From: Sanguinoderma infundibulare
Taxonomy: Eukaryota > Basidiomycota > Agaricomycetes > Polyporales > Polyporaceae
NCBI GenBank assembly: GCA_032821775.1
Contig: JAVLRN010000008.1
Coordinates: forward strand, 2,294,001 to 2,358,000
Reading direction: 5' to 3'
Length of the DNA: 64,000 nt
In this document: positions 22,431 through 53,099 of the stretch, in pieces
How the letters are laid out: each line of letters begins with the position of its first letter
Numbering within the stretch: position 1 is the stretch's first letter
Made by a program: the position numbers and the translations under genes
Notes under the pieces: generated by a model
Database searches by the model: none
What the model saw: only the letters and a program-made list of their open reading frames with translations
What the model was told of the DNA's origin: nothing

Positions 22431-23825
22431 CTAAGCATGTCCATATTGGACTTGTACCCACGAGACTACGCAATCCCAGGTTCCAACAGATTCATCTCCA
22501 GGGTTCTCTATCACTTGCGTGATTTCAATGGTAAGGTCCGGTATCTCATACGAGATGTTGTGGGGGCCGTGCGCGATATGATGGATGCCGTGTCCGTTTG
22601 GAGGAGCCTCGACGCGCCATGTGCCGGGACTTTGAGCTGCTCCGTAGTCCAGGGTTCTGTGATCGGCCGCCAGTCGAACGCGGACGATGATCAGGTTGAA
22701 TACTATGCATATCAATGAAGATAACTGGAAACGTGTCAATTGATCGTTACGATACACAGGAGGAAGTAGCAAGGACGTGGAGGCTGCCGAAAGCCTTTGG
22801 AGAAGGAGCGCGAGATCAACGCACCAAATCCATCAATAGCTACGCAGCATATGAATGCATGGCGAAGGTAATCAATCCAGCAGCCATAGCGACAGAATAA
22901 ATCGCTCCACTCTCAACAATCGCCCGGAGGATAGGTGTCAGTTTGCCGCTACCGGGACAATACCGCGCCGACTCGCGAGCCACTTGCCAAATTTTGAATG
23001 CCAAGAGACCTACTTGGTGTCAGCCATTGAAAATAGTCGAGAGCTACATAGCTACCTACCGGTAGACAAGAGATTGGTGGCAAGAGTCAAACCGTAAAGA
23101 GCTGTGACCCATTCCGCATCGCGAGTATCTAAGATATTCGGTGCGCGGGATTCAAGCTGCATCATAATCGTTGCCCCAATCGATAAGGCTAGAAACGCAG
23201 CATGGTCATTGAGAGAAAATACGATGAGAAGCGAAACACCTACCAACCATCCCCAGCCATCCCAAAATGGGCAACACGACGACATAGATATTTTGCCAGA
23301 CGACGTATGCTCGATAAATTTAGGAAACGTCATTGTCAATTTTGAAGAGACAACTTCAGAAGGGGATCATGCAGTACCACGATTCCCTCAAATATGAGTG
23401 GCTGAATGACATATACGACGGACTTCAACAACCACGGTATCCGCGAGACGTCAGCAAAGTACTGCTCGGGTCCCCCGGGCAGAGAGGGACCGATGCTGAT
23501 GAACTCCTGATAAATCCGGACAATGCTTGCAACCATCACCTACAGTACCATATTAGAATACGGTACCCAGGCTTCAATAGCGCGTCAAGCACCACGGTGG
23601 ACAGAAGAAACAGGGCAGATGCCGCCAGAAGCATTTTGAAGTTCAAGTGACGGCTGCGACGGTTGGCGACGAGAATCCAGATGGTGAAAATAAACAGGAG
23701 AAGGGAGAATCCTTTTGTTGATCATTGTTATACAGGGATGATAATGAATGGCATGGCTACCACTCACCATAGAGGATGCCCTCGAAGGTGGTCGAAAATA
23801 TTGCGGCTTCACTCAGAGTCAGCAT
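22431..23825 (-). pseudogene. Membrane protein, copy 2 (inverted duplicate, decayed)
   Basis: The minus strand reproduces the gene at 5378-6889 from MLTLSEAA to the cytosolic tail. Coding stretches are close to identical, for example LNFKMLLAASALFLLSTV and SLPGGPEQYFAD. Two lesions are visible. The acceptor of the intron after IFEGIV reads TTCCTAA where copy 1 has TTCCTAG. A TAG stop follows MHSYAA, where copy 1 has a Trp-containing segment (AVWIV). The last exon stays open to 22431 but its tail diverges after EITQ. It is best read as a pseudogene. The copy sits next to the duplicated F-box end, in the same relative order as copy 1. Confidence 0.85.
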
Positions 23826-24848
23826 AGCGACACACGGAGACTACGAGGTGGAGGAGTGATTGGCTCACCCTTTCGTTATATAATGTGTGGTCATCACCAG
23901 GCTCTGTATCTTGTGGAAAGCTGAGCAGCACACGGCCGGTGCAAAAATCATGGGCCCATCTAACGAAGATGGCGCCCACTGCGTGTCACTTGCCACAGTT
24001 CCGGGCTACCAAAGACGCTGCACAGCATCAGCATAGTCTGTCGACCATCATACTTATACGAACAAACAGAGTGCGGACCACATTCGGGCACTCATGAAGT
24101 CAGAAGGCTGAATCTGCAAAGTCCTTTGGTCAAATACACGGAGACCTGTGGCAATAGGATGACAGCGGAGAGAGGAAGGTGGGACTGCGTCTTGCGGGGC
24201 TTATCGAGCCAAATCTTCGACCTAGGCAGCCATATCGTCAACCTTCAACATTCTAGATGAGTCGCTCATAGCGCAGGTACCAGCGCACAGGTGCATCCAA
24301 CCTCCGGTTGCTCCGGCAGCTCGACATGCCTTTAACGCAGCCGAACTTTCACCGCCGCCTTCCTCGCCAACCAACACGCCTGTCATTGACTGCTTCCGGA
24401 CCCCGGCGTACAATATTAATGAGCTCCGTTCCGATCGGTGCACGGCGTACGCATGCGCAATCGATGGGTGTACGTGCAGACGCCACTTCCACATCGATGG
24501 CCGCTAGGAAGAACCTGGTGCTGCAGCCTCCGCGCAATCAGGGTGAGGGAGTGGCTGTCGACGTGAATGTGGCTTGAGGTCCCGTGTTTTTCGAAACAGT
24601 GGTTGCCTGTAGGAGAAAGAGGGATCAGCCTGGGTGGCGGTGAAAAGGACGCCGCAGACGCCTTCTGTTCTGGAACGTCTGCCCGTCATACACGCGATGG
24701 TTATTTCAAATCTGGTGGAGATGGAGATGCCGGAGGAGGAGGGTACGGTCAGAATAGACTCAAATGGCCGAGTGTCCAGGAGGTTTCATGACCTGCGCCT
24801 TTGCGCTTCGCGGTCGACAATGCTGTGCCAAGACAGACCACGGCTAGT
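23826..24848. other. Stretch between membrane-protein relic and TIR element
   Basis: No gene supported. About 24410-24495 matches, in reverse complement, the sequence downstream of the F-box gene (about 4668-4760), so this is the middle of the inverted duplication. The open frames at 24222-24577 on both strands fall in this relic and are not credible genes. Confidence 0.6.
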
Positions 24849-25045
24849 GTAGAGTCTACACACGCCTTTGCAAGTGCGCGGTTTATTATACCGACCGCAC
24901 TTGCAAGTGCGCGGCCCGCGTGTCCCCGTCCCCTCCCTTCTCCTGTCCCCTCTTCTCCGGCCTCTGGTTTGTATTTATGGCCCTGCTATAAGCGCATCTT
25001 GTACATCTTTTCGTATACAATCGTAATTGATTAATTTTCAAAAAT

Positions 25046-25128
25046 TTACCACCATCCGGACTTGAACCAAGGACCGCCGAACATCTCACTAACAACATAT
25101 TTTACCACTACGCCACTACTTCTTTGTA
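25046..25128 (-). ncRNA. Degenerate tRNA-like module (left, copy A)
   Basis: Minus strand: A box TGGCGTAGTGG and B box GGTTCAAGTCC are 36 nt apart, the spacing of a tRNA-type Pol III promoter. The acceptor stem and anticodon arm do not fold well, so it is a SINE-type head rather than a working tRNA. Transcription would run outward through the left TIR. Confidence 0.6.
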
Positions 25129-25529
25129 CCTGTTGTGGGGAGAACACATATAACACATACTTATAGCCCCGATGCTCGTGTCCGCGCTGATGCAAGTGAC
25201 TGCGCCGCCTGATTCAAGTGACTGCCGATCTGATGGAAGTGCCTCGCCCTGATGCCAAGTGTCTCACCCCTGATGCAAGCGTCCTCCGGGAGTGGCCCAT
25301 AAGCGCATGAAGTCCCAGTGGGGTAGTACTTGCAGTTGGCCCCAATATTTACAAGTCCATGGCAGTGCTCAGCCCTGGAAGGTATCTGATAGAGAGCATA
25401 TGCACCAAGAACTCATTGAACACTTTCCAGAGTGTGCAATTGCATGAGGGCGCCTCCATCTGGGGATCAGGCGCAGGTTCATGCTGAGTCATCACACTAC
25501 ATAGCGCAAATGATACCATTACTCCCAAA

Positions 25530-25615
25530 GAGTATGTAGACTAGTGGATTGGAGTACTGTTTAAACTGTGTAGAGGGCTTGTATTGCTCGGGGTTCGAGC
25601 CCCCGTTTTGCCATT
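25530..25615 (+). ncRNA. Degenerate tRNA-like module (right, copy A)
   Basis: Plus strand: A box TAGACTAGTGG and B box GGTTCGAGCCC, 44 nt apart. The T arm (CGGGGGTTCGAGCCCCCG-like) pairs well, but the rest of the cloverleaf is poor. Transcription would run outward through the right TIR. Confidence 0.6.
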
Positions 25616-25865
25616 GTCTTTTCTTTCGCGGCCCGACAATCGCGCGCCTCCGACAATCGCGCGATGGTTGCCCCTGTCTACCCCGCCCGCCATCACCGCC
25701 CAGCCCTTTCCGGATCTCCCCGCGCACTTGCAAGTGCGGCCGGTATAATAAACCGCGCACTTGCAAAAGCCTGTGTAGACGGCTCGGCTAGTATATCGCA
25801 ACTTCAGCCAGCTTGCTCAGTTCTCAGCCGTGGAGCGACTCGGAAATGCTCTAACACCTGAGGGT

Positions 25866-26010
25866 TAAGTCGTGTGCATTAGTTAATGACTACTAAAATA
25901 CGCGAAACACGATATCTCGCTTCTCAAACTCTTTCGCATGGCTGTAAGTGCGCGCCACCCGTCAGCCATAAAGAGTCGCCAATGCTACCAAGAGACAAAC
26001 GCTTGTTCAG
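25866..26010 (-). pseudogene. Fragment of an F-box paralogue (last intron and last exon)
   Basis: Reading the minus strand, the end of the last intron (GGCTGAC..GGCGCGCACTTACAG) and the exon for CHAKEFEKRDIVFRVF plus TAG are found, almost as at 4400-4490. The following TAATGCAC is also shared. Upstream exons are missing, so only the tail of a duplicated F-box gene remains. Confidence 0.85.
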
Positions 26011-26049
26011 GCGCCTTGAAAGATTCGGAAAGTAGTCATCCAGATCCTC

Positions 26050-26115
26050 ATTGGCCAGAGCCTAACACTAGAGCAGTGAACGATTGGCCAGAGCCTAGCA
26101 CTAGAGCAGTGAACG
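26050..26115. repeat. 33-bp tandem duplication
   Basis: Two adjacent copies of a unit starting ATTGGCCAGAGCCTA (26050-26082 and 26083-26115) differ at one base. It lies just beyond the stop codon of the HET gene and beside the F-box relic. Confidence 0.85.
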
Positions 26116-27805
26116 ATTCTCGAATACGATCTTTACGTAGTCAAGATGTGATAACGGTGTGGATACAAGGAGTCACTTGTGGCGCATTTCGTTTATAATC
26201 CGACCGAGGCGGTCGAGAGGGGTCAAGTGCTCCCTCAATCGAGCGCATAGTTTTCGAGGTGATGGCAAAGACTCCGAAACCGGGCCAGAGGGTTGTTCAA
26301 CGAGGGACTGGGGTGCTAGCGACGGCAGCGAAGACGGATCAAAATGCAAGTTAGAGTATAAGTATGGAATGTCAATGGAGTAGACCTTCAAGGCAGGGCG
26401 ATTGGGGTGGGGTGTGGGGTCTGTACTGGACCATTTGGAACCTTCGAGGTCGAGAGTGACGACGAAATGTCGACCCCCCGGCGAGTCCGTGTAGGAAGTG
26501 CTCTCGAGCCGCAGAGCGTAGTCTTCCCGGGCCGCTGTCCCGATGAGGAAGACCGCAGGTTGCCTCCTCTCCTCCACGTCCATTAGGTGTATGTTCGATC
26601 CGAGTCCGCACCCAGCGCTCGGACCCCCCAAACGCTCCTGGTTTGCACGAACAAGACCGGGCCCCCGGTCGGGGGTTACGTACGATCGGGCAAGGCTGAG
26701 GCCCAGGGTGCGAAACGTGTCGGCCGGGTCAAGAATGCCCCGGACGAAAAAGACATCGATCCACAAGTCTTGGGGCCACCAAACGAACACCTTGCATCTG
26801 CATAGAACGCCGAATACTACCACCAGGGTCTCCATACGTTTGGCGTTCATGAACAGAATGGTCAACGTGGGTCCTCCAGGTGAACTTGAAGTCCGCCAGG
26901 CATCCCCAGTGGTCTTGAATGTAAAGCGGTAGTCCTTGTACTCGATGTAGCGGGTACTATGATACACAGATGGAGTAAAGCCGTGGTATTCCAGACGATG
27001 GAAGACCCAACAGGGGATTTCGAGAACAATCTTCTGGAATTCAAGCGGTAGAGGTTGCAGAAGACCTGGCATCGTGGCGTTCGACGTATCGTGGTGTGTG
27101 ATGGCCTCAATCCTGAGCTCTTGATGGTAGATGGGTTTGCGGTGGAGCAATCCAAGCCCGATTGAAGCGAGTGGCAAAATCGCCCCCCGAGAATAAGCCG
27201 GTGCGTTGGAGGACCTCGGACTCGCGGTCCTCTGCCCTACCCGCGTGAAGGCCAAGTCCTGCGGAGGGTCATCCTCATGAGCGGGGGCGCCTGAAGCTGG
27301 CCGCGCAAGGAACAGAAATATGACGGTATCCTCGTTAGCGGTTGTAGTACAAGCCAGCGCTGCGGCTTGCAGGACCATATCGCCGAAGGTGGAGAGGAAG
27401 TCGGAGGACATGGGAAGACGGAGGGTGATGCCGTTCGCGGAGAACGTGCATTTGTAGTCGACGGCTCGACCGAAGACCTGGGTGTACCGACTTGGATCGA
27501 GTCGCCGGATCCCAGAGGATTGCGAAAAGTCAGCGGGGGAAGTCGCAAGGAGCCCACTGTTTCTAGACTCCGAGAGGGTCAATCTAATGGGGGAAAGTGG
27601 AGAATCGGCGGCATCAAGAGCGACGTCGAAGTCGCGGTGTATTGGACCCCAAACGAAGATGCTCTGGTCGGGGCAAACGGCGATTACCTCCTTCTGAAGC
27701 CGCAAGAAGGCCTTCTCGCCGCCCTCCCCGTAAATGACAGGCATGTTGACGCCAAATAGTCCCATCAGGGAGTATGCGCGATCCTCGGGACGGGTAGTCA
27801 CCCGT

Positions 27806-28795
27806 TGATACACTATCCCAGGGCCTGTGTACAGTCAGGACGACCACGGGCTGAGGGAGGCGAGGTCGGAGCGACGTCGCCGGTGCGGAGGGCGAGTACG
27901 GTCTCGAGTTCCCTTTGGTCGCGATCGTAACCAGTGCCGAGGAGAAGAGAGGGGAAAGAGCGTGTGGTGTCGAAGGTCGAAAGTCGCGGTAAAAGTCGCG
28001 CGACGAGTCGCTGTCGCTGTCGCAAATCGGTCGATCGGTGGTCGCTGTCGCAAGTCGCAATCGCAGTCGCTAGCTACACCCGACAGAGGACGATGTCGAG
28101 TCGCACTTGCTCGTCGGAGAAATGAGAGGTAAAGGGTGGGGGTCCAAGATTGTCTGCCCAAACGGCAACGAGTGGGGTTAAGTACATCGGTAACCGGTAG
28201 CTACACGCGACGCCCATAGCCTAGCCTGCCTCGCGGTGGCGAGCGATCACAAAACCAGCGTCGGAAACCCTCTGGAACTCCAGCGATCGGCGCGCGACCG
28301 CGACCGGATTGGGCGACCACCGTCGGCTTGTCTTGGCGGATCGCGATCGCTGTCGCGCAGTCGCGCGACTCGTCGGTTTCCGGTTGTCGCGACCCGTACC
28401 TGCTGCATAAGTAACCTTTCGTGAGGGACGATCTGCGACCAGTCGCGCAACGCGACGGAGAGAGCAACTGTGTGACTTAACTTGTGGCCCGCCGCCGTGC
28501 GACCGTAGGGACGGTCGGGGACAGGCCGAGTCGCGACACCGATCGTGGCCGAATACTTTTGGTACCCTTCGACGGCCTAGTCTTGGTGCGGCGGCATCGC
28601 ACGTGCCCGGCTTCTTCGGCTCTCGTCGGTACCGGACCCGGTTAACAGGCCGGGCCGCCACCACGTGTGTCCGAATCGCGCAGCCCAGAGACGCCAATGA
28701 GCCGGCAGCCGCCGAGACGTCGGTCGAGTCACCTCGGTCGTCCGAATGGAGCAATTGCGTCGGGCTCCGCGGTCGGAAGCGTCGGGTGCGCATCA
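27806..28795 (-). repeat. 3' LTR of the Ty3 element
   Basis: 990 bp, matched base for base by 38475-39464 except one seen difference near 28694/39363. It starts TGATGCGC and ends GTGTATCA on the minus strand. It contains a GTCGC-rich run at about 27985-28075. Confidence 0.95.
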
Positions 28796-28808
28796 CCTCC
28801 CCCTCACT
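28796..28808 (-). other. Polypurine tract
   Basis: AGTGAGGGGGAGG on the minus strand directly abuts the 3' LTR, the expected place of the plus-strand DNA primer in reverse transcription. Confidence 0.85.
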
Positions 28809-29146
28809 GGGATCTCGACCGTCCTCGGTCGCCGCGAGGAAGCTGCGTGGTACTGGTGCCGTCACCGCGCGATCTTCTCTTCTCGGCCACTTGACAGACG
28901 GCGATCCTCGCTAGACGCGCTTCTCGCGCTTCTCGACGAAAACGGTAACCCTTCGACCCGCCGCGCGACAAAAGACCGCCCCGAACTGGTGATCCCGCGA
29001 CTCCAGGCGTGCGATGGGGGTAGGCCCAGGATGCTGGCGCCGCCATCGCGCGTCACATAAGAGCCGTCGCCTGGTGGGTCTTCGTCCGTGCTCCCCTCCA
29101 ACCTCGCCCCTCGGTTCTTCTTCCTCTCCTCGTCTCACCATCTCCC

Positions 29147-31385
29147 ATGTCCGACCCCAAAGGCAAGTCCCGCGCCACCGGCGACGACACCTCCCAGGTC
29201 GCGCGCGACGGCGCCAAAGCCAACCTCGACATCCTCCTCGACTACTTGGACGGGAACCCCCCAGAGACCGACGACGACCGCGAGGCGGGACTCCAAAACG
29301 CGTCGGACAACCTGGTATGTCGTCTGTCGCTGTGTCCCTCCATGTTCAGGCTGACTTCGTTTTCTCGTCGCAGGACGCTTGGCTCGGTGCAGGAGCGGAC
29401 GCCGACGCGGTCGCTGCCGTCGCCGACCGCGTTGTCTTGTCGTTCGCGGACTGGTTCAGCTCGGTCGCACACGCGTGGCCGTCCTGGCTCAGCCCCATCC
29501 TCCGGGAGGGATACCTGCGCCTGGCCGCCCGTCAGATCGCCGATGCCCAACGCGTCGCCCGGAAGGCCGACGTGATGGCCAAGGCGCGCGAGCGCGCCGC
29601 CAAAAAGGCCGCCCGCCAGGCCGCTCTTCCTCCCATGCCCGACGTCCTCGCCGGCGTCGCCGCCCCTCCTCCTCCTCCGTCCTCTGCTGCCAAGTCGCAG
29701 CACCCTTCCGCCGCCGTCGCCGTCACCACGTCCTCCCAGCACTCCTCCGCTGCCGTTGCCGCGACTCTTGCCCCGGTGTCGTCCGCGTCGCGCTCGGGCG
29801 CTGTCGCTGCCGACGCCGTCGCCGGCCAGGCTCCCGAGTCGCCGTCCGCCGAGTCGCCGCCGCCCCGCGTTCGCCCTCGCGTTCGCCGCAAGCGCGGCCT
29901 GGTGGATCGCAGCTCCGTGGAGTCGGCCGAAGTCGCCGGGGAGAAGGCCGCGCCGCCCAAGAAGACGCGCCGCGATCCAGAGGTCGCTGGTGCCGTCGTC
30001 GCACCGCCCGCGCTGGCGCGCCCCGCCCCCATCGAGCTCGGTTCCTCTGAAGACGAACCCCGTCGGCCCGAGATCCCCAAAGTCGAGCTGGGGAAGCGGA
30101 AGTCGGCAGCCGACACTCAACCGCGGCCCGCGTCGCCTCCTCGCCCAGACCCCGCGCTGTCGGCGGTAAGTGACTTGTCGCCGCTCTTTCCCCCTTTGTC
30201 GCTGCTGATCGCTGTCGCAGTGCGACCGCTGCTCCGGCTACGCCCGGATCGAGTGCGTCCTCCGGCGTGGGGAGGTTCGGTGCGAAAAATGTCGCAAGGA
30301 CAAGAAGGGCTGCGAGTACGACTCACAGCGGTACAGCGAGTGGTTTGACGACTCCAAGCTCAAGCGCGGTAAGTCGCCCAGCCCCTCCTATCGCCGCGAC
30401 CGCTGACCTTGTTCCAGGTCGCATGGCCGTCCGCCCGTCGCTCCACCAAGTCGAGCGGGGCAACGCAAAGGGGTGGGAGCTCGCCGCTGATGGCTCCATC
30501 GTCGCGGTCGCTCCTCCGGACATCGAGGGCCCGGCCGTCGCCGACCCTCCCCCCAAGGCTCCAAAGCCCCGCAAGGCCAAGAAGCCGGCGCCCGCTGTCG
30601 CCGGCCCTCCTCCTGCCGCGGGTCCTTCCACACGTCGCGCCGCGGCGGTCCCTGGGCCTGTTGCTGGTGCTGCGACCCGTCGCGCCGGCGACGCTCTCCC
30701 TCCCGTCATCAGCCCCGAGACGCGTCGCATCCTCGACGCTCGTGTGCCTGTCGCGGTCCCTTCCTCGCGTGTCGCCCACGCTCCTCCCCCCGCCGCTGGT
30801 CCTTCGTCTCGCCCTGCCGCGCCGATCCCCGCCCATCCTCCTCGGCCGGCCTACGCCACGGGCTTCCGCATCCCCACGCCGACTATGCGCCTCCGTCGCC
30901 AACTCGCCGGGGAGGGCTTCCCTCTCCTCGCGTCCTCTGCCAACCGGCACGTCGCTGGCCTCGGCGGCGCGACCGCTGGACTGGGCGCCGACGACCTCGC
31001 CGGTGCTGGTCTGTCGGAGGACCGGCAGACGTACATCCGTGCCCTCCGAGCGGAGAACGCCTTCGTCGCGGGTCGCATTGAGGTCCTGCTGGAGCTCCAG
31101 CAGTACCTGCATGAGCTAGAGCTCATCGCGACTGGGAAGGAGTGGGGCGCCGACGACTACGAGGCCGACGACTACGACGAGCGCGAGCGCGAGCCCACTA
31201 GTCGGGGGGGCGATGACGACGACGACGATGACGCGTCATACGTCCCGTCGGAGGACGAGCGGGAGCCGGTCATCCAGGCGCCTGTCGCGCAGGGGCCCGT
31301 CGCAGAGGCGCCAGTCGCAGAGGAGCCTGTCGCTGAGCCGTCGGAAGGCCAGGAGGACGCGTTGAATGGCGAAGGGGACGAGTAG
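29147..31385 (+). CDS. Antisense gene inside the retrotransposon: Zn2Cys6-like, low-complexity protein
   Basis: Exons: 29147-29314, 29374-30165, 30221-30368, 30418-31385; three GT-AG introns, all phases agree, 691 aa. The N-terminal part has a helical segment (DAVAAVADRVVLSFADWFSS) and an Ala/Lys-rich helix (KARERAAKKAARQ). A long Pro/Ala/Ser-rich region with basic patches (RVRPRVRRKRG, PKKTRRD) follows. Residues about 321-355 hold CDRCSGYARIEC, then CEKCRKDKKGC: C-x2-C-x7-C-x8-C-x2-C-x6-C, close to the fungal Zn2Cys6 pattern (usually x6 between the second and third Cys). The C-terminus has a coiled-coil-like run (RALRAENAFVAGRIEVLLEL) and an acidic tail. It is transcribed against gag-pol, between pol and the 3' LTR. 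DNA or RNA binding is inferred from the Cys motif only. Confidence 0.8.
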
Positions 31386-31919
31386 GTGGAGTCCAGTCGC
31401 GCCGTGGTCGCACCACGTCGGACACTGATTTTCTTCCCAGTTTTCTTTCTTGGACTTGCATGTGTATGTAGGCGCGCTCTCTTCCCGTCTCGTCGCTAGT
31501 TTTCTTGCTGTATGTCGTATGTCGCCGTCGCTATCTCGGTCGCAGTATCGCAGTCGCTATCGCAGTGTCGCAGTCGTTATCGCAGTGTCGCAATCGCTGG
31601 TCGCAGTCGTCTTCGCTATCTTGTCGCCTGTAGCTTATATCCGTCAATAATAATATCTCTCCTTTGGTTCTAGACGCGTGAATGACAAAAGTATTTCCCC
31701 GAGGGAAAGGCTCAGCGTGGAATCCTTCATCACCAGAAAACCCTCGCCATCGCGACAAAGCCACGATGGAAAATCGGTCGCAAAGGTGCGTCCGAGGTCG
31801 CAAAGAATATAAACGAAAGACTATGAAGTGGCGATTGGGGGGGGTATGCGAAAGATGAAAAGAGCGCAATATGGAAGATATGGAAGCGGATCACAAATGA
31901 AAACCGATACTCAGCTCGA
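31386..31919. other. Interval between antisense gene and pol, with GTCGC-type simple repeat
   Basis: Both reading units end here (convergent). At about 31525-31620 a run of degenerate TCGCAGTCGCTATCGCAGTG-type units forms a short satellite. No open frame with coding features. 3' ends of the convergent transcripts probably overlap here. Confidence 0.7.
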
Positions 31920-34900
31920 CTAGTCCGTGTCGCCCACCCCGTCGCTGCCGTTCAGCGATATCGCATCGCCAGTCGGACGATCGTCCTCGACACCCGCGTC
32001 GTCGGCGTTCTTCATGTCCTCGAACCGCTTTTGCGAGATGTCGAGGAGCTCGTCGGCGATGCCGATTGATTGTCGCGCGAGGTAGGGGAGGAGTCGGAAG
32101 GCCGCGACTGGTCGGTGAAAGACCGTCCCATCGAGTTCGCAGATGACGTACGCTCCCCCGCGGTTGCGGGTGAGGACGACAAGCGGCCCGAGGTATCGTG
32201 GTCGCATCTTGCGGTTGAGGGCCTTCTCGATCTGCGTGTGTCGGAGGAGGACAAGGTCGCCGCGTTTGAAGTCGAAGTCGCGGATGGTTGTCGCGTGGTC
32301 GCGCTCGAACTTGTACGCTGCTCGAAGTCGCGCTCGGTAGACGTCGGACTGGAGGTCGGCGATCTGGTCTTGCCGCTTCTGGAGCGCTGTCGCGCGCTGC
32401 GTGATGAGATCGGTCGTCGACAGGATCGAGTCGGGCGGTGGGAGCAGATAGGTTGCTTCTCCGATGTCGAATGGCAGGATCGGATGACAACCTGTAGCCG
32501 CGAAGTATGGTGAGCAGCCCATGCGACGTCGCGTAGTTACTCTTTCTGCCCAGAAGGCGAAATGAGCGACTTGCGACCACTTGGTCTCGTCGCCGTCGGC
32601 GGCCTTGAACAGAACCTGTCGCACGTCGAAGTGGGGTCGCTCGACGATGCCGTTCGCCCGCGAGTTGTAGCCGCTGATTCGGATATGTCGGAGGTGATAC
32701 TTGCGCGCGAGGTAGCCAGCCGCTTTGACGAAAGCCGCGCCGTTGTCGGTGACGATCTCTGCGAGGCCACCCCAGCGACAGATGACGTCTTGGAACAGCC
32801 AGTCGCCGAGGGTCTTCTCGGTCTCGACGCGGAGCATGCGCCACTCCGGGTAGTGCGAGATCGCGCAGCGCGCCTGGACGATGTACTTGAAGCCGCCGGA
32901 GGCGGGCATGTGCATGGTGTCGATGTGGACTCGCGCGAACAGTGGTGCGGGTGTCGCGACCGTCGGCGGAATGAGGACCTGTCGCGTCTGTCTCGTCTGG
33001 CAGAGATGGCAAGTGCGAACATACCAAGTGACGTCCTCCCGAAGGGACGGCCACCAGAATCGCTCCGCGATGAACTGCAACGTCGCATAATTGCCGCAAT
33101 GACCTATGTCGTCGTGTGCCTGTCGGAGGATCGCGAGTCGCTGGCCGAGGCCGACTACGAGCTTGTGTGCGCCGTGCGAGTCCTTTCGCCACAGTCGGTC
33201 GCCGTCGACGAAGTGCTGCTGGCAGTACTTGATAAACTGCGGGTACGCCTTGTCGGAGATGTCGCTCGGTTGTCGGAGGTCGCGGAGCCACCTCTTGACC
33301 TTGTCGAGTCGCTCGTTCGCTCGCCGAGTGAAGTCGGAAGTCGGAATGTCGCTCGACGTGGTCGCAGTGTCGCTTGTCGGTTCCTGGTCGGTCGGTCCCT
33401 CCCCCTCACTGAGATCTCGACCGTCCCCGGTCGGAGACGCGATCGTGAAAAGTTGCAGGGGAGAGGCGCGTTGTCGCGGTCGCGTCGGCAGCATCTGGTG
33501 CAGGAAGCCGTGGACTTTGTCGATCCAGTCCTCGAAGCCGTCGTCGTCGTCGCGCGGCTCGTCGCCCGGTTGTGATGGTCGCCGCGACAACCCGTCGGGC
33601 CCGTGCGACGTTCCAGGGACGTGCACTAGAGTGAAGTGGAACGTTAGTATCGCGACGATCCAACGGTTAATGCTAGCGCTCGGAGAAATGTCAGGGTTCT
33701 GGAGCATGCCCTGAATGTATCGCGCGTCGACCTCGACGACGAGGTTTCGAACACCGATCAAGTAGACCTTGAGGTTCTGCAGGGCGCGATAGAGGCCGTA
33801 GATCTCGAGCTTCGGTTGCGAGAATCGCGCCTCCCTGTCGTTGAGCGTTATTGATCCGAAGCGACTGTAGTACCGCTTGCGCGGGTCGTCGATGTCGCAC
33901 TGGCAGAGGTGGAAGCCGACCGCGATGTAGGAGGTATCGACGGCGAGGATGACGGCCGCGCCCGACTCGTAGTCGATCGCGCGGAGCGCCGGCGACTCGA
34001 TGACCGCCTTCTTGAGGTCCTCCTGCGCACGGAGTTGCTCGTCGCCGAACTCGAAGGGGACGTCCTTCCGCGTGAGCTTCACGAGTGGCCAGGCGCGCTT
34101 CGCGAAGTTTCGAATGAAAAGTCGCAGGACGCCGACCGTGCCTATGAACGCGCGGATCTCCGATATGTTCCCGCACGGTCCCCAGTTGACGATGAGGGCG
34201 ACGCGCGACTGTTCGGGTTGTCGCCCGATCGGAGTGCATCGCTGGCCGATGACGATGTTCTCGATGTCGATGGGCATCGACTTCGGCCCGGAGTAGGTGC
34301 CGCCGGCGTGGCTCATGCGTGTGACGATGCGATTCTGGTTGTCGAAGTGCTCCTTGACGAAGCGACGAACGCCGGGGTTGCGCGGGATGGTCTCGTACTT
34401 GCCGTCGCGGTCGCGATAGTCGGATTTCGGTCCCTTGCCGGGGACATCGTCGATATACGGTACTGTCCACTCCGGGATCTCGGGCTGCAAGATGTAAGTG
34501 ACGTCGTCGTGGAAGATAGGTACCGAGTTACACCACCCCATCGGGAGGGTGCAGTGTCGCAACGCGCCGAACGGAGTCTGGAAGGTCGTGAGGTCGCGCG
34601 ACGACTTTGCGATCAGTCGCTCGTCGTAGCCGACGTAGAGGTCGTACATCGAGCCGCACGGTCGCCCGCCGAACTGCTCGGCGAGATAGTCGGGCGTCGG
34701 AGTTACGCCCGAGTGCGCGATCGTGACCTTGTTGAGTGGCTCGAGGCTGTGGACGATGCGCGGCTTCCCGTCCTTTTTCGCGACGCAGAACCAGCGACCG
34801 CGATACGACGAATTCGACGGCTCGTACACGCCGGCGGCGATCTTGCGCTTGATGATGTCGCAGACCTCCTTGTAGAGACCCGGCGGGATTGGGATGTTCT

Positions 34901-35399
34901 TCTGGACCCACGGCGTGTGCGGTACGACCGGAAAATCGACCGGTGGGAAGAACTCGGGTTTGAAGCAGCCGCGCTCCTCGTCGGTCCATGCGAACGCCTC
35001 GTTGTGGACGCACATGAAGTAGTGGAGGAGCTTGCGCTCTTCGGGCCAGAGAAAGTCGGGTCGCAGCTTCTTGTCGAGGGCCTCCATGCGTTCGCGGGTG
35101 TAGCGACCGGTCGGGACGAAGTCAGGGGGATGATCGGGGAGGATCGGCATGTTCGCGAGCGGGTCGCCGGTGATGTTGCGCACGACGCGAAACTGTTCGG
35201 GGCACGAGCCTAGGACAGGTCGCACCTTGCGCGCGACCGGTTTGTACTTCTTCTTGGTGACGAGGCCTTTCGTAACGGGGTCGCGCGTAGTGAGGAAAAC
35301 GTTCGCGGGGGTATCTTGCGATCGCGGCGCGAAGTAGCCGCGACCGTTTTTGGTCGGAAACGAGAATACGAAAGAAGGTGAGGAAGAACAGGGGCGCAT
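31920..35399 (-). CDS. pol: Ty3 pol: reverse transcriptase, RNase H, integrase
   Basis: From the first Met at 35399 the frame codes 1,159 residues, but the same frame is open upstream to the end of gag (35719 and slightly beyond), so translation probably enters by frameshift. RT: RGRWFCVAKKDGKPRIVHSL, FQTPFGALRHCTLPMGWCNS, and the active site YIDDVPGKGP near residue 315. RNase H: ILAVDTSYIAVGFHL near 486. Integrase: zinc finger HDDIGHCGN...CHLCQ (about 764-796), then catalytic Asp in ARVHIDTMHM (about 826), IVTDNGAAF (about 885) and Glu in NGIVERPHFD (about 916). A C-terminal SH3-like part follows (KRGDLVLLRHT). No chromodomain seen. All key catalytic residues are present, so the element may be active. 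Confidence 0.95.
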   Translation of the reverse strand: MRPCSSSPSFVFSFPTKNGRGYFAPRSQDTPANVFLTTRDPVTKGLVTKKKYKPVARKVRPVLGSCPEQFRVVRNITGDPLANMPILPDHPPDFVPTGRYTRERMEALDKKLRPDFLWPEERKLLHYFMCVHNEAFAWTDEERGCFKPEFFPPVDFPVVPHTPWVQKNIPIPPGLYKEVCDIIKRKIAAGVYEPSNSSYRGRWFCVAKKDGKPRIVHSLEPLNKVTIAHSGVTPTPDYLAEQFGGRPCGSMYDLYVGYDERLIAKSSRDLTTFQTPFGALRHCTLPMGWCNSVPIFHDDVTYILQPEIPEWTVPYIDDVPGKGPKSDYRDRDGKYETIPRNPGVRRFVKEHFDNQNRIVTRMSHAGGTYSGPKSMPIDIENIVIGQRCTPIGRQPEQSRVALIVNWGPCGNISEIRAFIGTVGVLRLFIRNFAKRAWPLVKLTRKDVPFEFGDEQLRAQEDLKKAVIESPALRAIDYESGAAVILAVDTSYIAVGFHLCQCDIDDPRKRYYSRFGSITLNDREARFSQPKLEIYGLYRALQNLKVYLIGVRNLVVEVDARYIQGMLQNPDISPSASINRWIVAILTFHFTLVHVPGTSHGPDGLSRRPSQPGDEPRDDDDGFEDWIDKVHGFLHQMLPTRPRQRASPLQLFTIASPTGDGRDLSEGEGPTDQEPTSDTATTSSDIPTSDFTRRANERLDKVKRWLRDLRQPSDISDKAYPQFIKYCQQHFVDGDRLWRKDSHGAHKLVVGLGQRLAILRQAHDDIGHCGNYATLQFIAERFWWPSLREDVTWYVRTCHLCQTRQTRQVLIPPTVATPAPLFARVHIDTMHMPASGGFKYIVQARCAISHYPEWRMLRVETEKTLGDWLFQDVICRWGGLAEIVTDNGAAFVKAAGYLARKYHLRHIRISGYNSRANGIVERPHFDVRQVLFKAADGDETKWSQVAHFAFWAERVTTRRRMGCSPYFAATGCHPILPFDIGEATYLLPPPDSILSTTDLITQRATALQKRQDQIADLQSDVYRARLRAAYKFERDHATTIRDFDFKRGDLVLLRHTQIEKALNRKMRPRYLGPLVVLTRNRGGAYVICELDGTVFHRPVAAFRLLPYLARQSIGIADELLDISQKRFEDMKNADDAGVEDDRPTGDAISLNGSDGVGDTD

Positions 35400-35718
35400 A
35401 AAGGAGAGAGAGAGGGCGATGTCGAGAGAGGGAGACGGAGGAGGAACTGGAGACGCGAGGAGAGAGAAAGAGTCCGAGGTCGCAGTGGTCGGCGGTGTCG
35501 CCGGTGTCGCCGCGCTTGTCGCACGACATTTTTCGCTAGTAGTTGTGAGATTAGTTGAGAAATAGACGGCCGCGCGATCGTGCAGTTGATCGCAGGCCGA
35601 TAAATAGAGAGCTGGGATAGGAATAGAGTCGTCAGCGATGCGGGTATATGCAGAGATAATGGGGCCCCCTGGTGTGTCGTCGATGACGAGGGCGTAGTCG
35701 CCGTCGGGCGACCCGTCC

Positions 35719-37962
35719 TCAAACGGATTCGGCGCGCTTGCTGTCGATGCGAAACCGAAAGGTCGGCTGTCCTCGCGGTCGCGTCGGGATGGTCACAACT
35801 TGTCGCGTGTTCGGGCATTCGAGCGTGATCGTCTGGTCTTCATTGTTGAAGTTCTTGATGACGCTCCGCGTCAGGACGTCGAAGGGGCGACCGAGGAGCA
35901 AGTCGTAGGGCGCGTTGCGAATGACGTGAACCTGTAGGTAAAGCGTAATACCGCCGACGAGGAAGGGCACATTGCGAACAATACCTAGCGACGGGTCGAC
36001 CGCGCCGTTCGCCGACTGCATATACAGCTGCACCGTCGGGTCGTAGGAGAGCGCCGCGTGGTGGCAGAGGCCCTCGGAGATCGAGACGATTTGCGCACCG
36101 CCATCCAAGGTTCCCTCGACGTCGATCTTACCATCGAGACAACCGACGATCGAGCGAAGCGCATACGACTCCTTTGCGACCACGAGCGGCTGCGGCTCTT
36201 GGCCGGGGCCGAGTCGCGAGAGGTAGACGTCGTACGGGTCGGGGACTACCAGCGCACCCGGCTCCAGGGGTTCGCCGCGACAGGACCGCGCAGTCGCGAG
36301 TTCGTCGTCGCTGGTCGCATCGGCGAAGGTGACTGTGCGCGGCTCGGTCGGTACGCGCTTTGGGGTGATTGCCTCGCGGAACTTGGCGCGCACGTCGGGA
36401 GCGATGCAGAGGAGCTCCTCGACAGAGAGCGTGATCGCCGGTGTCTTCATCGCGCGCGAGTAGACCTCGTCGATCAACTTGGGCTGGTAGACCGGGACCG
36501 TGTTGCGATACGCTGGATCGCGCTCTTTACCGCTCGCTGGTCGCGGTGTTGCGCCGACATTGGTCGTCCGTGGCGGCGCATAAGTCGCGTCGCGGGCTCC
36601 CGCGAACGGGTGCTCTGGCGCCGCTCCTTGTCGCGTGGCCGGGGTCGGTGGTCGCAGGATGGTGACCGGCCGTGCTGGCGCGGCCGCCACGGTTGCCCTG
36701 GTCGCGGCTGGGGCCGACGCCCTCATTCCGGAACCGCTGGTGGTCGCTACCGTGGGGCCCCCGTTGGGAACCTCCTCGACTCTTGCTGCCGGTCGCGGTC
36801 GCCGGGGAACGGTCGTGATCTCAACTCCATCGAACTTCTCTCTTGCTTGTCGGAGGGCGAAGATCTCATGCTCGAGTTGGGCGATGCGGTCGCTGGTCGC
36901 GTCAGGCGTCGGGGCCGCCGGTGCGACCTGGAAGAGGAGCTGGCCTACAGGCGCCGTCGCGTTGCGCCGGTGCCACTCATAGGCGCGGTCGCGCATAGTC
37001 AGGCCCGGTAGGTTGCGCGGTACGAATTGCCCATTAGGCAAGACAACCTTCCCATCGTTGTTCCGCGCAATGCGACCCGCGTTGATGTCCTCGTCGACGA
37101 ACCGGCAGGTGCGAACCTGGCAGCCCGCGTCACCGCAGTAGTGGCAGAAGCCCATCGGCGGCGGTCGCCCGTAATCGGCACGCTGTGGTGGTCCCGCTGG
37201 TCCTGCCCCGGCACCATTGTCGCGTATTGCCTGCGCCATCATTCGGAAGAAAGGCTCGACATCTTCCAGCTTGATACCTGTCGCTGTCGGAGTCGCCGTC
37301 GCCGTCGCAACCGCTGGTGCTACCGGCGTCGCCGTCGCTGTCGTCGACGTCCCGTGAAGCACGAATCGTGCCGCCTCGAGGACGTCTCGGAGGGCGTAGG
37401 GGTCGTCGGGGTGGTGGTCGACGAACTTGATCTGAAGTCGCTGAGCCACCTGATCCCATAGGGGCGGTCGAATGCCACGCGCGAAGAGTCGCGACTGTTC
37501 CAGTACCGACAATCGCTGGTGCTGTATCAAATAGGTAGTCATAACGAGGAAGTCCCGATGAAAACTGGAGAGTTCACCGAGCGTCGTGATCGGTGTCGCC
37601 GCGCGACCTGCGACCAGATTATCCACGTCGGCGACCGAGTACTTGCGAGCCTCATCCGCGCCGGGGTATAGCTCGGCCACGCTCGTCTTCCACTGTTCGA
37701 ACGTGTACGCGTCCTCGTACGAGGGGAGCGACTCCCACAAATCGGCGACCTCGACCTCGAGATAACGAATCGCCCATCGTTTGCGTGGTCGGCCAGTGGC
37801 GACCTGGCACCTGTCGAAGAGCGCGTCGAGGTCTTGCCAAAAGCCACGCAAGGTTCTTGGTCGCTCGGGGTCGAATACCGGCGCAGTCGCGTGGTTGCGC
37901 GCGGGCATCGCGGGTGGCGGGTGCGCTGCTGGCTGCGGCGCTTGAAGATCGGGGGGATCCAT
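35719..37962 (-). CDS. gag: Ty3 gag and aspartic protease
   Basis: 747 codons from the first Met at 37962. The capsid-like part includes LRGFWQDLDALFDRCQVATG, WAIRYLEVEVADLWESLP and FEQWKTSVAELYPGADEARK. A zinc knuckle near residues 274-288 reads CHYCGDAGCQVRTC, C-x2-C-x4-C-x4-C, with Cys in place of the usual His. The protease near residue 619 has LDGGAQIVS, Gly replacing the usual Ser/Thr after the catalytic Asp, followed by APYDLLLGRPF. The frame is also open for 145 codons upstream of 37962 without any ATG, and the translated extension looks coding. It ends in TGA at 35719, where the pol frame continues in +1. Confidence 0.9.
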   Translation of the reverse strand: MDPPDLQAPQPAAHPPPAMPARNHATAPVFDPERPRTLRGFWQDLDALFDRCQVATGRPRKRWAIRYLEVEVADLWESLPSYEDAYTFEQWKTSVAELYPGADEARKYSVADVDNLVAGRAATPITTLGELSSFHRDFLVMTTYLIQHQRLSVLEQSRLFARGIRPPLWDQVAQRLQIKFVDHHPDDPYALRDVLEAARFVLHGTSTTATATPVAPAVATATATPTATGIKLEDVEPFFRMMAQAIRDNGAGAGPAGPPQRADYGRPPPMGFCHYCGDAGCQVRTCRFVDEDINAGRIARNNDGKVVLPNGQFVPRNLPGLTMRDRAYEWHRRNATAPVGQLLFQVAPAAPTPDATSDRIAQLEHEIFALRQAREKFDGVEITTVPRRPRPAARVEEVPNGGPTVATTSGSGMRASAPAATRATVAAAPARPVTILRPPTPATRQGAAPEHPFAGARDATYAPPRTTNVGATPRPASGKERDPAYRNTVPVYQPKLIDEVYSRAMKTPAITLSVEELLCIAPDVRAKFREAITPKRVPTEPRTVTFADATSDDELATARSCRGEPLEPGALVVPDPYDVYLSRLGPGQEPQPLVVAKESYALRSIVGCLDGKIDVEGTLDGGAQIVSISEGLCHHAALSYDPTVQLYMQSANGAVDPSLGIVRNVPFLVGGITLYLQVHVIRNAPYDLLLGRPFDVLTRSVIKNFNNEDQTITLECPNTRQVVTIPTRPRGQPTFRFRIDSKRAESV

Positions 37963-38453
37963 CGCGAGCGACGAGAGTTCGCTGAGTGGTGTGAACGGGG
38001 AAACTTGTAGTGACGCTGTCGAGGGTGTCGCAGCGATATCCGGCGACAGCGGGAGGGGAACGTCTGTCCAGTAATCGGGCGAAGGAGGGAGTGGAACGTC
38101 TTCCCAGGGTTCTGGCGACGGTGGCAGGGGAAATTCGCCGGGAATCGCGCTCGGCGTCGCGCGTCTCGCTCTAGACCTAACCGTCGTGGAAGATGTCGCG
38201 GACGAAGAGTCGGAAGAAGAGGGTCTGTTATCGAGTGCATCGATACCGCGATCGAGGGCGCGAGAGAGGGAATAGAGTATGCGACTGTATCGGGCCTCGT
38301 CGCCGAGCTGAAGTCCAAGGTCGGTGACTCTATGCGCGCGAGCGACAAGTAGCTCGTGTGCGAGCGACGAACGCGAAGGAGTGGAAGGTGTCAGCGTGGC
38401 ACTGTATGAGAGTTACGGGATCGCACCAAAGGCGGAGGCGAGATCTATACTCC
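37963..38453 (-). other. ATG-less open extension of gag and 5' leader
   Basis: The gag frame stays open from a TAA near 38410 to the first Met at 37962. The translation has globular-looking text (HELLVARAHRVTDLGLQLGD, ARYSRILYSLSRALDRGIDA) and Pro-rich repeats (PEPWEDVPLP, PDYWTDVPLP). An ACG codon at 38395-38397 in the context GCCACGC could be a non-AUG start or a mutated ATG. Confidence 0.6.
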
Positions 38454-38471
38454 CCCTCGCGGTGGGCTCCA
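38454..38471 (-). other. Candidate primer-binding site
   Basis: TGGAGCCCACCGCGAGGG on the minus strand starts three bases after the 5' LTR. The leading TGG would pair with a tRNA CCA end. Which tRNA is used cannot be told. Confidence 0.55.
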
Positions 38472-38474
38472 AAA

Positions 38475-39464
38475 TGATACACTATCCCAGGGCCTGTGTA
38501 CAGTCAGGACGACCACGGGCTGAGGGAGGCGAGGTCGGAGCGACGTCGCCGGTGCGGAGGGCGAGTACGGTCTCGAGTTCCCTTTGGTCGCGATCGTAAC
38601 CAGTGCCGAGGAGAAGAGAGGGGAAAGAGCGTGTGGTGTCGAAGGTCGAAAGTCGCGGTAAAAGTCGCGCGACGAGTCGCTGTCGCTGTCGCAAATCGGT
38701 CGATCGGTGGTCGCTGTCGCAAGTCGCAATCGCAGTCGCTAGCTACACCCGACAGAGGACGATGTCGAGTCGCACTTGCTCGTCGGAGAAATGAGAGGTA
38801 AAGGGTGGGGGTCCAAGATTGTCTGCCCAAACGGCAACGAGTGGGGTTAAGTACATCGGTAACCGGTAGCTACACGCGACGCCCATAGCCTAGCCTGCCT
38901 CGCGGTGGCGAGCGATCACAAAACCAGCGTCGGAAACCCTCTGGAACTCCAGCGATCGGCGCGCGACCGCGACCGGATTGGGCGACCACCGTCGGCTTGT
39001 CTTGGCGGATCGCGATCGCTGTCGCGCAGTCGCGCGACTCGTCGGTTTCCGGTTGTCGCGACCCGTACCTGCTGCATAAGTAACCTTTCGTGAGGGACGA
39101 TCTGCGACCAGTCGCGCAACGCGACGGAGAGAGCAACTGTGTGACTTAACTTGTGGCCCGCCGCCGTGCGACCGTAGGGACGGTCGGGGACAGGCCGAGT
39201 CGCGACACCGATCGTGGCCGAATACTTTTGGTACCCTTCGACGGCCTAGTCTTGGTGCGGCGGCATCGCACGTGCCCGGCTTCTTCGGCTCTCGTCGGTA
39301 CCGGACCCGGTTAACAGGCCGGGCCGCCACCACGTGTGTCCGAATCGCGCAGCCCAGAGACGCCAACGAGCCGGCAGCCGCCGAGACGTCGGTCGAGTCA
39401 CCTCGGTCGTCCGAATGGAGCAATTGCGTCGGGCTCCGCGGTCGGAAGCGTCGGGTGCGCATCA
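38475..39464 (-). repeat. 5' LTR of the Ty3 element
   Basis: 990 bp, nearly identical to 27806-28795. It joins the HET gene at CCGT on its outer side and the candidate primer-binding site on its inner side. Confidence 0.95.
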
Positions 39465-40240
39465 CCGTCTCGCAGCCCACGACATCCGGTGAGCCACGCT
39501 CATCTTCTCCTTGTGGATCGGATCGAGGAGTACGCCAGAGTCTATGCCTGTGCATTCAGAAAGGGGTTCGACGAGAGAACGCCTCGTTCCAACCAGACCC
39601 CACAAAGCCGACAGAAAGACGACATGTTTCGGTGCCACGAGCTCCTGAAGTGTCCAGCCCCGCATGTGCCACTTGCTCTTTCGGAACAGAGAAGAGGAAG
39701 AGAATGGGTTGTCGTCGTCGGGTACATCGAAGAGGTAGGCGTAGCAGACGTGGGCGGCGCGGTACCACGCATACATGGAGTTGATGGCCTCGGAGAGTTC
39801 GGCGCTGCTGCTCTTGTCGATGCAGCAGGTATCGAGCCACGCCCACTCGTAGCCGTCTTCGACCGCCAGTCTGCAGAATTGGCGAACCTTCTCAGGGGCA
39901 AGAGTGAGAGGGTCCTCCCCAGAGGCGCGACATTTCTCGCACAAGTCTCTGATGCTCTGGAAGCTGTACGTCTTGTCGGCGTCCTGCCAGACATGGGAGA
40001 GGATGACGTAGCGGACTTCCTTGGGATTGGTGAACTCCCGCAACTCCAACGTCCTCGTGTTCAACAACCACATCCTGGCGCCTTCAACGCCAACAGTGCA
40101 TCAGATGTCGTGAAACCGAGAGAAGATATCGTTACTCACCGGTCGTGATGCGAGCACACCGCACTGGGACCTATCGCTACCCAGTCACGGTCGTTGACTT
40201 CAAGCTGGGTGCTCGCTGTAACGAGTCAGCAATAGTTCAG

Positions 40241-41176
40241 GTAGAGTCTACACACGCCTTTGCAAGTGCGCGGTTTATTATACTGACCGCACTTGCAAGT
40301 GCGCGGCCCGCGTGTCCCCGTCCCCTCCCTTCTCCTGTCCCCTCTTCTCCGGCCTCTGGTTTGTATTTATGGCCCTGCTATAAGCGCATCTTGTACATCT
40401 TTTCGTATACAATCGTAATTGATTAATTTTCAAAAATTTACCACCATCCGGACTTGAACCAAGGACCGCCGAACATCTCACTAACAACATATTTTACCAC
40501 TACGCCACTACTTCTTTGTACCTGTTGTGGGGAGAACACATATAACACATACTTATAGCCCCGATGCTCGTGTCCGCGCTGATGCAAGTGACTGCGCCGC
40601 CTGATTCAAGTGACTGCCGATCTGATGGAAGTGCCTCGCCCTGATGCCAAGTGTCTCACCCCTGATGCAAGCGTCCTCCGGGAGTGGCCCATAAGCGCAT
40701 GAAGTCCCAGTGGGGTAGTACTTGCAGTTGGCCCCAATATTTACAAGTCCATGGCAGTGCTCAGCCCTGGAAGGTATCTGATAGAGAGCATATGCACCAA
40801 GAACTCATTGAACACTTTCCAGAGTGTGCAATTGCATGAGGGCGCCTCCATCTGGGGATCAGGCGCAGGTTCATGCTGAGTCATCACACTACATAGCGCA
40901 AATGATACCATTACTCCCAAAGAGTATGTAGACTAGTGGATTGGAGTACTGTTTAAACTGTGTAGAGGGCTTGTATTGCTCGGGGTTCGAGCCCCCGTTT
41001 TGCCATTGTCTTTTCTTTCGCGGCCCGACAATCGCGCGCCTCCGACAATCGCGCGACGGTTGCCCCTGTCTACCCCGCCCGCCATCACCGCCCAGCCCTT
41101 TCCGGATCTCCCCGCGCACTTGCAAGTGCGGCCGGTATAATAAACCGCGCACTTGCAAAAGCCTGTGTAGACGGCT
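40241..41176. mobile_element. 936-bp TIR element with two divergent tRNA-like modules, copy B
   Basis: Same length and almost the same sequence as 24849-25784; differences seen include TATACTGACC for TATACCGACC in the left TIR and GCGCGACGG for GCGCGATGG near the right end. Flanks read TAGTTCAG (40233-40240) and CAGTTCAG (41177-41184), a 7 of 8 match consistent with an 8-bp target duplication. tRNA-type boxes are at 40450-40460 and 40497-40507 (minus strand) and at 40929-40939 and 40984-40994 (plus strand). It lies shortly upstream of the HET gene start. Confidence 0.88.
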
Positions 41177-47129: not shown

Positions 47130-47665
47130 TCACTCTGCGACTTCCGCCTCGGCATGCTGTGCTTCCTTCTCGGTCTTGAACTTGTGATACTCGATCTTCC
47201 AGTTCAAGATCGCAGTGGCGAGCTAATCAGAGGACATCAGTGTCCGATAAGCACCAGAACGCGGTATAGATCCTTACCACATGCCCCCTCTTCGTTTGCG
47301 CGACGCGAGTCTTGACGAACGCGACGCTCAAAGGCCCCAAGCGCGCCAAGTCGAACACTTGCGCGACATGAGGAGCATAGTAACATTGAGTAGTGTCGTA
47401 AAACCAGACATCCTCCAGATGCTTGGCATTTTCGACGATGGGACGATGAGACCTGATTAATGGAGGACCGTCACGAGGTGACTGGGTTCAAAGCGATATA
47501 GATGGGCACGAATACTCACGGTTACGCACGATGAAAAGCTTGGTATGCCAATATGGGGGCCTCCGGTTGGGGGCGGGGAAGACAAAAGGTGCTCACACAA
47601 AGATGGTGGGAGGAAGGAAGGGGATGGGCGACGGGTGCTCTGAATACAGGTATATGTAGGCAGAG
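47130..47665 (-). pseudogene. 3' part of a host gene interrupted by the chromovirus
   Basis: Two 3' exons are clear: 47278-47452 and 47130-47222, joined by a GTAAGG...TTAG intron. They code SHRPIVENAKHLEDVWFYD, TTQCYYAPHVAQVFDLARLG, PLSVAFVKTRVAQTKRGHV and LATAILNWKIEYHKFKTEKE, ending EVAE. An upstream exon piece (about 47590-47665) reads AYIYLYSEHPSPIPFLPP. On the far side of the element, 53317-53345 continues it upstream as FAAGVNFS after a CGTTAG acceptor. I do not recognise the family; it looks like a small soluble or mitochondrial protein. The exon between 47452 and 47590 is uncertain. Confidence 0.6.
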
Positions 47666-47882
47666 TGGAAGGAGACGCAGTCTCCAACACTCGGAACACA
47701 AGAACAGGAACAGGATCTGATATCGTGTGAGTAAAGACTGGATACATGTGTGCATGATACGTACCTGATATCGTGTGAGTAAAGACTGGAGAGCACGATA
47801 TCAGGTGGTCTGGATAATATATAGTATGTGTATGTAATCAGAAGCATCCCGAGTAAGGCAGGAGGAGACCGTATGCCTTACA
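47666..47882 (-). repeat. 3' LTR of the chromovirus
   Basis: 217 bp, TG...CA ends, identical to the other LTR. It contains two direct copies of TGATATCGTGTGAGTAAAGA and an inverted pair CCTGATATCGTG / CACGATATCAGG that can form a 12-bp stem. Confidence 0.95.
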
Positions 47883-47910
47883 CTCCTCCACCCTCTGAAA
47901 AAAGCGTAAT

Positions 47911-52620: not shown

Positions 52621-53099
52621 GGTTGTGGAGTGGGTATATGCGGTCGGGAAGGCAGGTTTTGGGGGAACAGATGATGCAATTGAGGAGAATGAGCTGTCTG
52701 GACTATCGTCTGGGGTGCAGGGGCGGGTGTATGCGCGGGAATTCGATGGGGGAGCGTCGGCAACAGTGTCGGGGTGGGTGTATGCGGCAGTTGACGGAGG
52801 GTTTACGGGGCCTGGGGACGGGGGCGTCGAATAATCCGGGATAGAGACGACCGGGGATGGGCAGCTGAGAAAAGATAGCGAGGAGAACTCACTATCCACC
52901 GGGGAGGGTTCTGATGATTCGGCGTTGACGCCGTCGTCTACGCCACCCAAAGCAGCGTAGCGGCCCCGAGTGATGCGATTACCGGGGATCTGCAGCAGCC
53001 GAGAATGGCTGTCCCAGTACGACGTCGGGGGCGTCGCAGACAGGGTGGCAGCTACCGGGAAAACCGGCAACGCAGACCTGTTCGTAGTTCAAAAAAAAG
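52621..53099 (-). other. 5' leader of the chromovirus, open but without ATG
   Basis: Between the 5' LTR and the first ATG the gag frame remains open for 150 codons. The translation is Ser/Pro/Thr-rich and repeats AYTHP, AYTRP and AYTHS. It may be a non-AUG N-terminal extension or simply an unselected open leader. Confidence 0.5.

Follow-up and report, generated by a model that had tools for sequence, protein, structure and literature searches.

Antisense genes and modular LTR elements

Extra genes lying antisense to gag-pol are already known from LTR retrotransposons of plants and of Botrytis (PMC7264820; PMC8365987). The plant Ty3 genes of the aORF-3R type, among them those of Grande (gene23), RIRE2 and Retand, resemble the gene reported here in place and orientation. 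They are likewise present in most copies, and the available text of the same sources calls the roles of antisense genes beside the 3' LTR unknown and proposes that they are nuclear regulators (PMC7264820, PMC11963269). The antisense gene of Grande is reported to be transcribed from its own promoter and to have a nuclear product (PMC7264820). Unlike the Retand gene with its TRP28 domain, the gene described here is without TRP28; it contains a cysteine cluster, and its three introns are conserved. The available text of the plant studies tells of no exchange of the gene together with U3 (PMC7264820, PMC11963269), whereas the present gene appears to move with U3.

Boty-like elements of Botrytis cinerea, which carry the antisense gene brtn (Zhao et al. 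2011, as given in PMC8365987), also combine a fungal element with an antisense extra gene. Their host is an ascomycete, and the likeness to our element is one of description. Among retroviral antisense genes, HBZ of HTLV-1 is spliced. HBZ and APH-2 of HTLV-2 likewise are antisense genes near the 3' LTR with nuclear products (PMC11963269). Both are retroviral, and their likeness to the present gene would lie in how they work. The elements of the Tnt1 superfamily are of the Ty1/copia type. They share a backbone but differ in their U3 regions, a pattern termed 'modular evolution'; the abstract names no gene that travels with U3, unlike the cassette found here (PMC1838419). VANDAL elements, which encode VANC, are also rich in a short word of their own, at high density and in one orientation (PMC5735166). 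These are DNA transposons of Arabidopsis in which the motif is mainly non-coding and its binding has been shown (PMC5735166), whereas the word in our element also fills coding regions and is known from sequence only.

In a literature search whose reach excluded much of the subscription literature, we met no such antisense gene in a basidiomycete element, none that is exchanged along with U3, and no element that a single pentamer saturates in coding and non-coding parts alike. The original prediction for this locus concerned the gene and its carrier; the apparent exchange of cassettes and the saturation of the whole element with the pentamer GTCGC, both described below, go beyond it.

Structure of the element and its antisense gene

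The window is the whole stretch of 64,000 nucleotides that was analysed, and all coordinates without a contig label refer to it. A complete and young LTR element of the Ty3 type, 11,659 bp long, was found at 27806-39464 on the minus strand, which is its sense strand; it was delimited by its LTR pair, target-site copies, polypurine tract and primer-binding site. The 3' LTR (27806-28795) and the 5' LTR (38475-39464) are both 990 bp long and differ by one mismatch, and the target-site copies CCGT lie on the outer sides of the 3' LTR (27802-27805) and the 5' LTR (39465-39468). A primer-binding site beginning with TGG, three bases off the LTR (38455-38471), and a polypurine tract beside the 3' LTR (28796-28808) were read in the sequence on the same strand. 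The carrier is therefore the complete Ty3 retrotransposon that had been predicted. Its minus-strand open frames are pol (31920-35792, 1290 aa) and gag-protease (35722-38412, 897 aa from stop to stop). RT_RNaseH, RT_RNaseH_2 and Integrase_H2C2 were called in pol above the Pfam cut-off, and the domains follow the Ty3 order, with RVT_1 not called by Pfam, a YIDD motif found by eye, and the protease match itself (gag-asp_proteas, E 1.5e-5, 25.9 bits) under the cut-off of 28.2. The protein database holds 1274 relatives of pol at E <=1e-5 among 7053 candidates, some of which carry PF00078.

Between pol and the 3' LTR, which is the site of the aORF-3R genes, lies a plus-strand gene of four exons and 691 codons that is antisense to gag-pol. 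Its exons are 1 (29147-29314), 2 (29374-30165), 3 (30221-30368), with the cysteine cluster at 30221-30313, and 4 (30418-31385), with a conserved C-terminal stretch and an acidic tail. The predicted introns are 59 nt (29315-29373, GTATGT...CAG, phase 0), 55 nt (30166-30220, GTAAGT...CAG, phase 0) and 49 nt (30369-30417, GTAAGT...CAG, phase 1) long. The joined exons amount to 2076 nt, the only stop is the last codon and the product has 691 aa. Both the four-exon frame and the exact positions of the three GT-AG introns agree with the original prediction. Long open frames are common in this GC-rich DNA and length by itself is little proof; we hold the gene to be real because it is conserved among copies.

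Conservation among copies and linkage to the element

All copies compared come from the one genome that contains the window (48.9 Mb in 87 contigs), and the versions of the gene are labelled A (that of the window), B, C, D, E and F. The gene model was lifted to 15 A/B copies, with the interrupted copy C7:467 and C2:1167 left unlifted, and to four D copies. The GT..AG introns were retained in 19 of 19 lifted copies (15/15 A/B and 4/4 D), and the frame was open in 14 (12/15 and 2/4, respectively); the dN/dS value of D_C8_1697, where the frame is broken, was set aside. The introns run antisense to the genomic RNA, so splicing does not take them out of it and they are carried through transposition, as had been anticipated. 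The intron phases 0,0,1 are common to the diverged versions A, B and D, in spite of an identity of only 36% between the proteins of A and D. Between A and B, dN/dS of the gene was 0.259, all 13 coding gaps had lengths divisible by three, and codon position 3 accounted for 232 of the 434 substitutions. Judged from this divergence, the gene is under purifying selection. Like the plant aORF-3R genes, it is thus found in most copies and is conserved as a protein.

The genome search with pol scored the best 36 of 234 candidates, and the copy numbers that follow are lower bounds. It had been suggested that the same antisense gene be sought in other copies; related elements with no conserved frame here would have counted against the prediction. 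The reverse was observed, as the gene lies downstream on the opposite strand for 29 of the 31 pol matches that are at least 75% identical. Its distance from pol is 520-690 bases in 28 copies and 2173 bases in one, where pol is shortened at its 3' end; all of these lie within 4 kb. The remaining two matches are 5' halves of pol, which presumably belong to split copies. Searching for the gene itself gave 32 loci, of which 29 adjoin pol and three have no pol within 4 kb. One of these three, C13, is an element remnant with LTR sequence. By these comparisons the gene belongs to the element.

A second pol lineage, 45-58% identical to the pol of the window, was found at five loci among the best 36 of 234 candidates. 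At C2:1032211 an antisense gene with a cysteine cluster of its own was read directly in the equivalent place. Matches to this second antisense family also lie behind C4:1056025 and C4:2874193, that is at three of the five loci, and none is listed behind C8:284374 or C4:1040847. When the A/B/D family was compared with the second-lineage gene, 75 columns ending in the cysteine cluster were aligned, with a probability of 46% and E 2e-4. The second-lineage regions (C2:1035773-1037792, C4:1057615-1059639 and C4:2858641-2873672) are without GTCGC saturation. Further matches to this antisense family occur elsewhere in the genome.

The original prediction had also offered a captured host gene as an option. 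Such a gene, carried as passive cargo of no use to the element, would explain the ordinary spliceosomal introns. We consider this very improbable, as passive cargo would hardly be expected beside 29 of 31 related pols (the other two being 5' halves), under purifying selection and with a counterpart from another family in the equivalent place at three of five loci of the second lineage. The option also finds no support in the gene loci, 29 of 32 being beside a pol and C13 being a remnant. No stand-alone host copy was seen, the pol-less loci C12:407735-409850 and C4:3199844-3200285 lying outside the set that was fetched.

The antisense product

The product is laid out as a conserved N-terminal region, a six-cysteine cluster, a conserved C-terminal stretch and an acidic tail. 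Six cysteines with the spacing CX2CX7CX8CX2CX6C were read from the alignment in A, B and D, and the three clusters have little in common except the cysteines themselves. The cluster had been called Zn2Cys6-like. This description holds for the cysteine pattern in all three versions but not for the Pfam profile Zn_clus (PF00172), which version A matched at E 2.3 with 8.8 bits against a cut-off of 21 and version D did not match. The usual spacing of the first loop in Zn(2)-Cys(6) clusters is X6; here it is X7, and the structure model of exon 3 is of low confidence (mean pLDDT 64.5).

No Pfam family was found for the product at E <=1 and therefore no TRP28 (PF04195) domain, and a PDB profile search gave one match at E 0.5. 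Against the protein database, the spliced product had no relative at E <=0.001 among 8000 candidates scored, and residues 1-135 had none at E <=10 among 3269 candidates. Fungal pols of this lineage do occur in that database; among the 120 listed of the 1274 relatives, the named sources are Rhodonia placenta, Meripilus lineatus and Mycena chlorophos. The null result for the product therefore points to strong divergence or missing gene models and not to absence elsewhere. Viral contigs contained no relative of either pol or the antisense gene.

Probable exchange of the gene together with the adjoining LTR half

Elements A, B and D were aligned and their identity was followed in 150-base steps, with gaps counted as differences. 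From position 31706 through pol, identity was 92.7-100% for A-B and 90.7-98.0% for A-D; over 29006-31705 it was 50-90% and 8-58%, respectively. In the gene-side half of the LTR the A-D identity drops to 33% (28556-28705), and at the far end of the LTR it is 88%. The same division was observed at synonymous sites, where dS over the whole of pol was 0.072 for A-B and 0.142 for A-D and dS of the gene was 0.651 and 1.044. From the identity steps and dS ratios we delimit a cassette at 28256-31695, which comprises the gene-side LTR half (probably U3), the block of the polypurine tract and the antisense gene. Its edge is sharp near 31696 and soft within the LTR. The two LTRs of one element are identical at 99.5% in B and 96.2% in D, whereas the LTRs of A and B, and of A and D, are far less alike.

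The other versions were found on related backbones. Type E has a pol 93-96% identical to that of the window with a gene only 34-39% identical to A and 58% to D. The pol of type F is 82% identical to that of the window and its gene 46-48% to D, and for type C the values are 75% for pol and 46-60% between its gene and A. On these comparisons, the gene behaves, together with the LTR half beside it, like a cassette that can be swapped on a near-constant gag-pol.

It could be argued that nothing was exchanged and that the gene and U3 evolve in place much faster than pol. Each cassette type could indeed be one clade on the tree of the 3' part of pol, where a single clade of A copies was not rejected (AU p 0.376); a tree that keeps young A and young B copies together was also not rejected (p 0.104). 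The conflict in topology that was expected between the pol and cassette trees was not found, and the argument for exchange therefore rests on branch lengths and on the boundary. Fast evolution in place is nevertheless improbable in our view, as synonymous and non-coding sites differ too and as the ratio of gene dS to dS of the 3' part of pol depends on the pair compared. It was 0.2-1.9 in ten pairs with the same cassette and 4.2-10.9 in seven pairs with different cassettes. Since pairs with the same cassette do not show raised gene dS, the gene region is not simply faster-mutating.

Frequent recombination at a high rate has been reported among copies of one LTR family (PMC5668417). Exchange of the cassettes among elements that are almost alike in gag-pol would proceed most simply by template switching near the junction of pol and gene during reverse transcription, and a single switch near the edge would import the gene and U3 together. 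In the course of reverse transcription the U3 at the 3' end ends up in both LTRs, so a new U3 copied from there would enter both. A hairpin at the cassette edge, considered as a switching signal, was no better than in shuffled sequences (z -0.84 and -0.48).

On balance we favour the interpretation that this is the element's own spliced antisense gene, that it probably encodes a nuclear nucleic-acid-binding regulator and that it lies in a cassette exchanged together with U3. The protein would act on the LTR or the chromatin of the element, a role of the kind proposed for the plant antisense genes (PMC7264820, PMC11963269). Of the 'element-encoded regulator' that had been proposed, the encoding by the element was borne out by the linkage to 29 of 31 pols, while the regulatory role is kept as a proposal. 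The natural swaps place several gene versions, each with its own LTR half, on one near-constant backbone within one genome, and they let one ask whether each product acts solely on its own U3.

Saturation of the element with GTCGC

The pentamer GTCGC or its complement GCGAC was observed 255 times in the 11,659 bases of the element, which is 21.9/kb and 2.94 times the dinucleotide expectation of 86.6. The density is 3.8 and 4.0/kb in two host stretches of the window (ratios 1.03 and 1.14), 3.2/kb in the other Ty3 element of the window (ratio 0.86), 4.0 and 5.2/kb in two regions of the second lineage (ratios 1.40 and 0.94) and 0.6-1.4/kb at eight other reverse-transcriptase loci. The word is dense in every segment, whether coding (exons, pol and gag) or not (LTRs, introns and the intergenic part), and versions B and D are rich in it too. 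Fewer were seen in decayed copies, and in type C the density is as low as 7.3 and 4.5/kb. The bases that flank the word add little. Pol contains 73 copies; in 300 synonymous-codon shuffles the number was 33.9 (s.d. 3.7) and never exceeded 44. Furthermore, fourfold sites of pol differ in 8 of 255 comparisons inside the word, a lower share than for any other of the 34 pentamers compared, and in 178 of 1730 outside it; by pair, p was 0.068, 0.030 and 0.0024, values that are too small because the comparisons share branches. In gag the effect is weak (23/190 against 242/1371, rank 5 of 42), and its p of 0.03 is too small for the same reason.

VANC proteins bind dense short motifs of their own element (PMC5735166), and the pattern expected of such a system, a word-rich element beside host DNA and other elements that are not, is present here, with triple clusters of the word also outside these elements. 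The antisense protein might accordingly be a VANC-like anti-silencing or activating factor that binds the GTCGC copies of its element and keeps its chromatin open. The 2.94-fold excess over expectation against the low densities in host DNA and in the other Ty3 element, the presence of the word in all segments including introns, the excess in pol over codon shuffles and the conserved fourfold sites of pol all suit such a factor. We regard it as a possible but rather doubtful reading, since A, B and D have the same word and yet cysteine clusters that are alike in little but the cysteines. Other observations that do not suit it are the weak fourfold effect in gag, the low density in type C copies and the triple clusters of the word beyond these elements, which number 904 in the whole genome against 215 for the reversed word.

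The orientation of the word is also unequal, with 179 GTCGC against 76 on the strand of the gene, so that GCGAC dominates in the sense RNA. This bias counts against a VANC-like factor in so far as it would suit an RNA signal as well. The word could thus be a signal at the RNA level, for packaging or export, that Gag or a protein of the host recognises, the antisense gene being separate from it. Its density in gag and pol, both outside the cassette, would fit, but the minority orientation is enriched too (76 against about 43, half of the expectation of 86.6), and we think this explanation rather unlikely.

One further reading can be put forward tentatively, as an outside chance. The antisense gene and U3 would constitute an exchangeable specificity cassette, in which the protein reads GTCGC or the matching U3, tells self from host and activates or shields the element. 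The saturating pentamer is a concrete candidate target of the product. If this were true, the cassette types would be a retrotransposon counterpart of the immunity regions of phages, and if the pentamer and the gene are linked, these would be retrotransposons with a self-recognition code of exchangeable specificity.

Other features of the element and its surroundings

The block of the polypurine tract at the 3' LTR (from 28793 on) has a second copy within pol (33395-33444), which elements A, B and D all retain and which may be a central polypurine tract. An Rfam search of 24800-41300 gave no match.

The element splits a gene, the two pieces of which (26173-27834 and 39469-40100) both match the stretch 56258-57990. 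The split gene presumably resembles a HET-type gene; a Pfam search of the piece at 26176-27834 found no family. The split gene is flanked on either side by a repeat of about 937 bp (24849-25785 and 40241-41177), the two copies of which are near-identical and had their extent read by eye. The repeat has inverted ends of 61 nt, and ARAGORN found no tRNA in it. The second Ty3 element of the window (47664-53317) encodes a chromodomain, has a frame of 1725 aa and is bounded by short LTRs, listed at 220 nt. With pol ending 28 bases before the LTR, it has no space for an antisense gene of this kind. In addition, an inverted repeat of 772 nt was observed at 5494-6265 and 22945-23716, with 90% complementarity.
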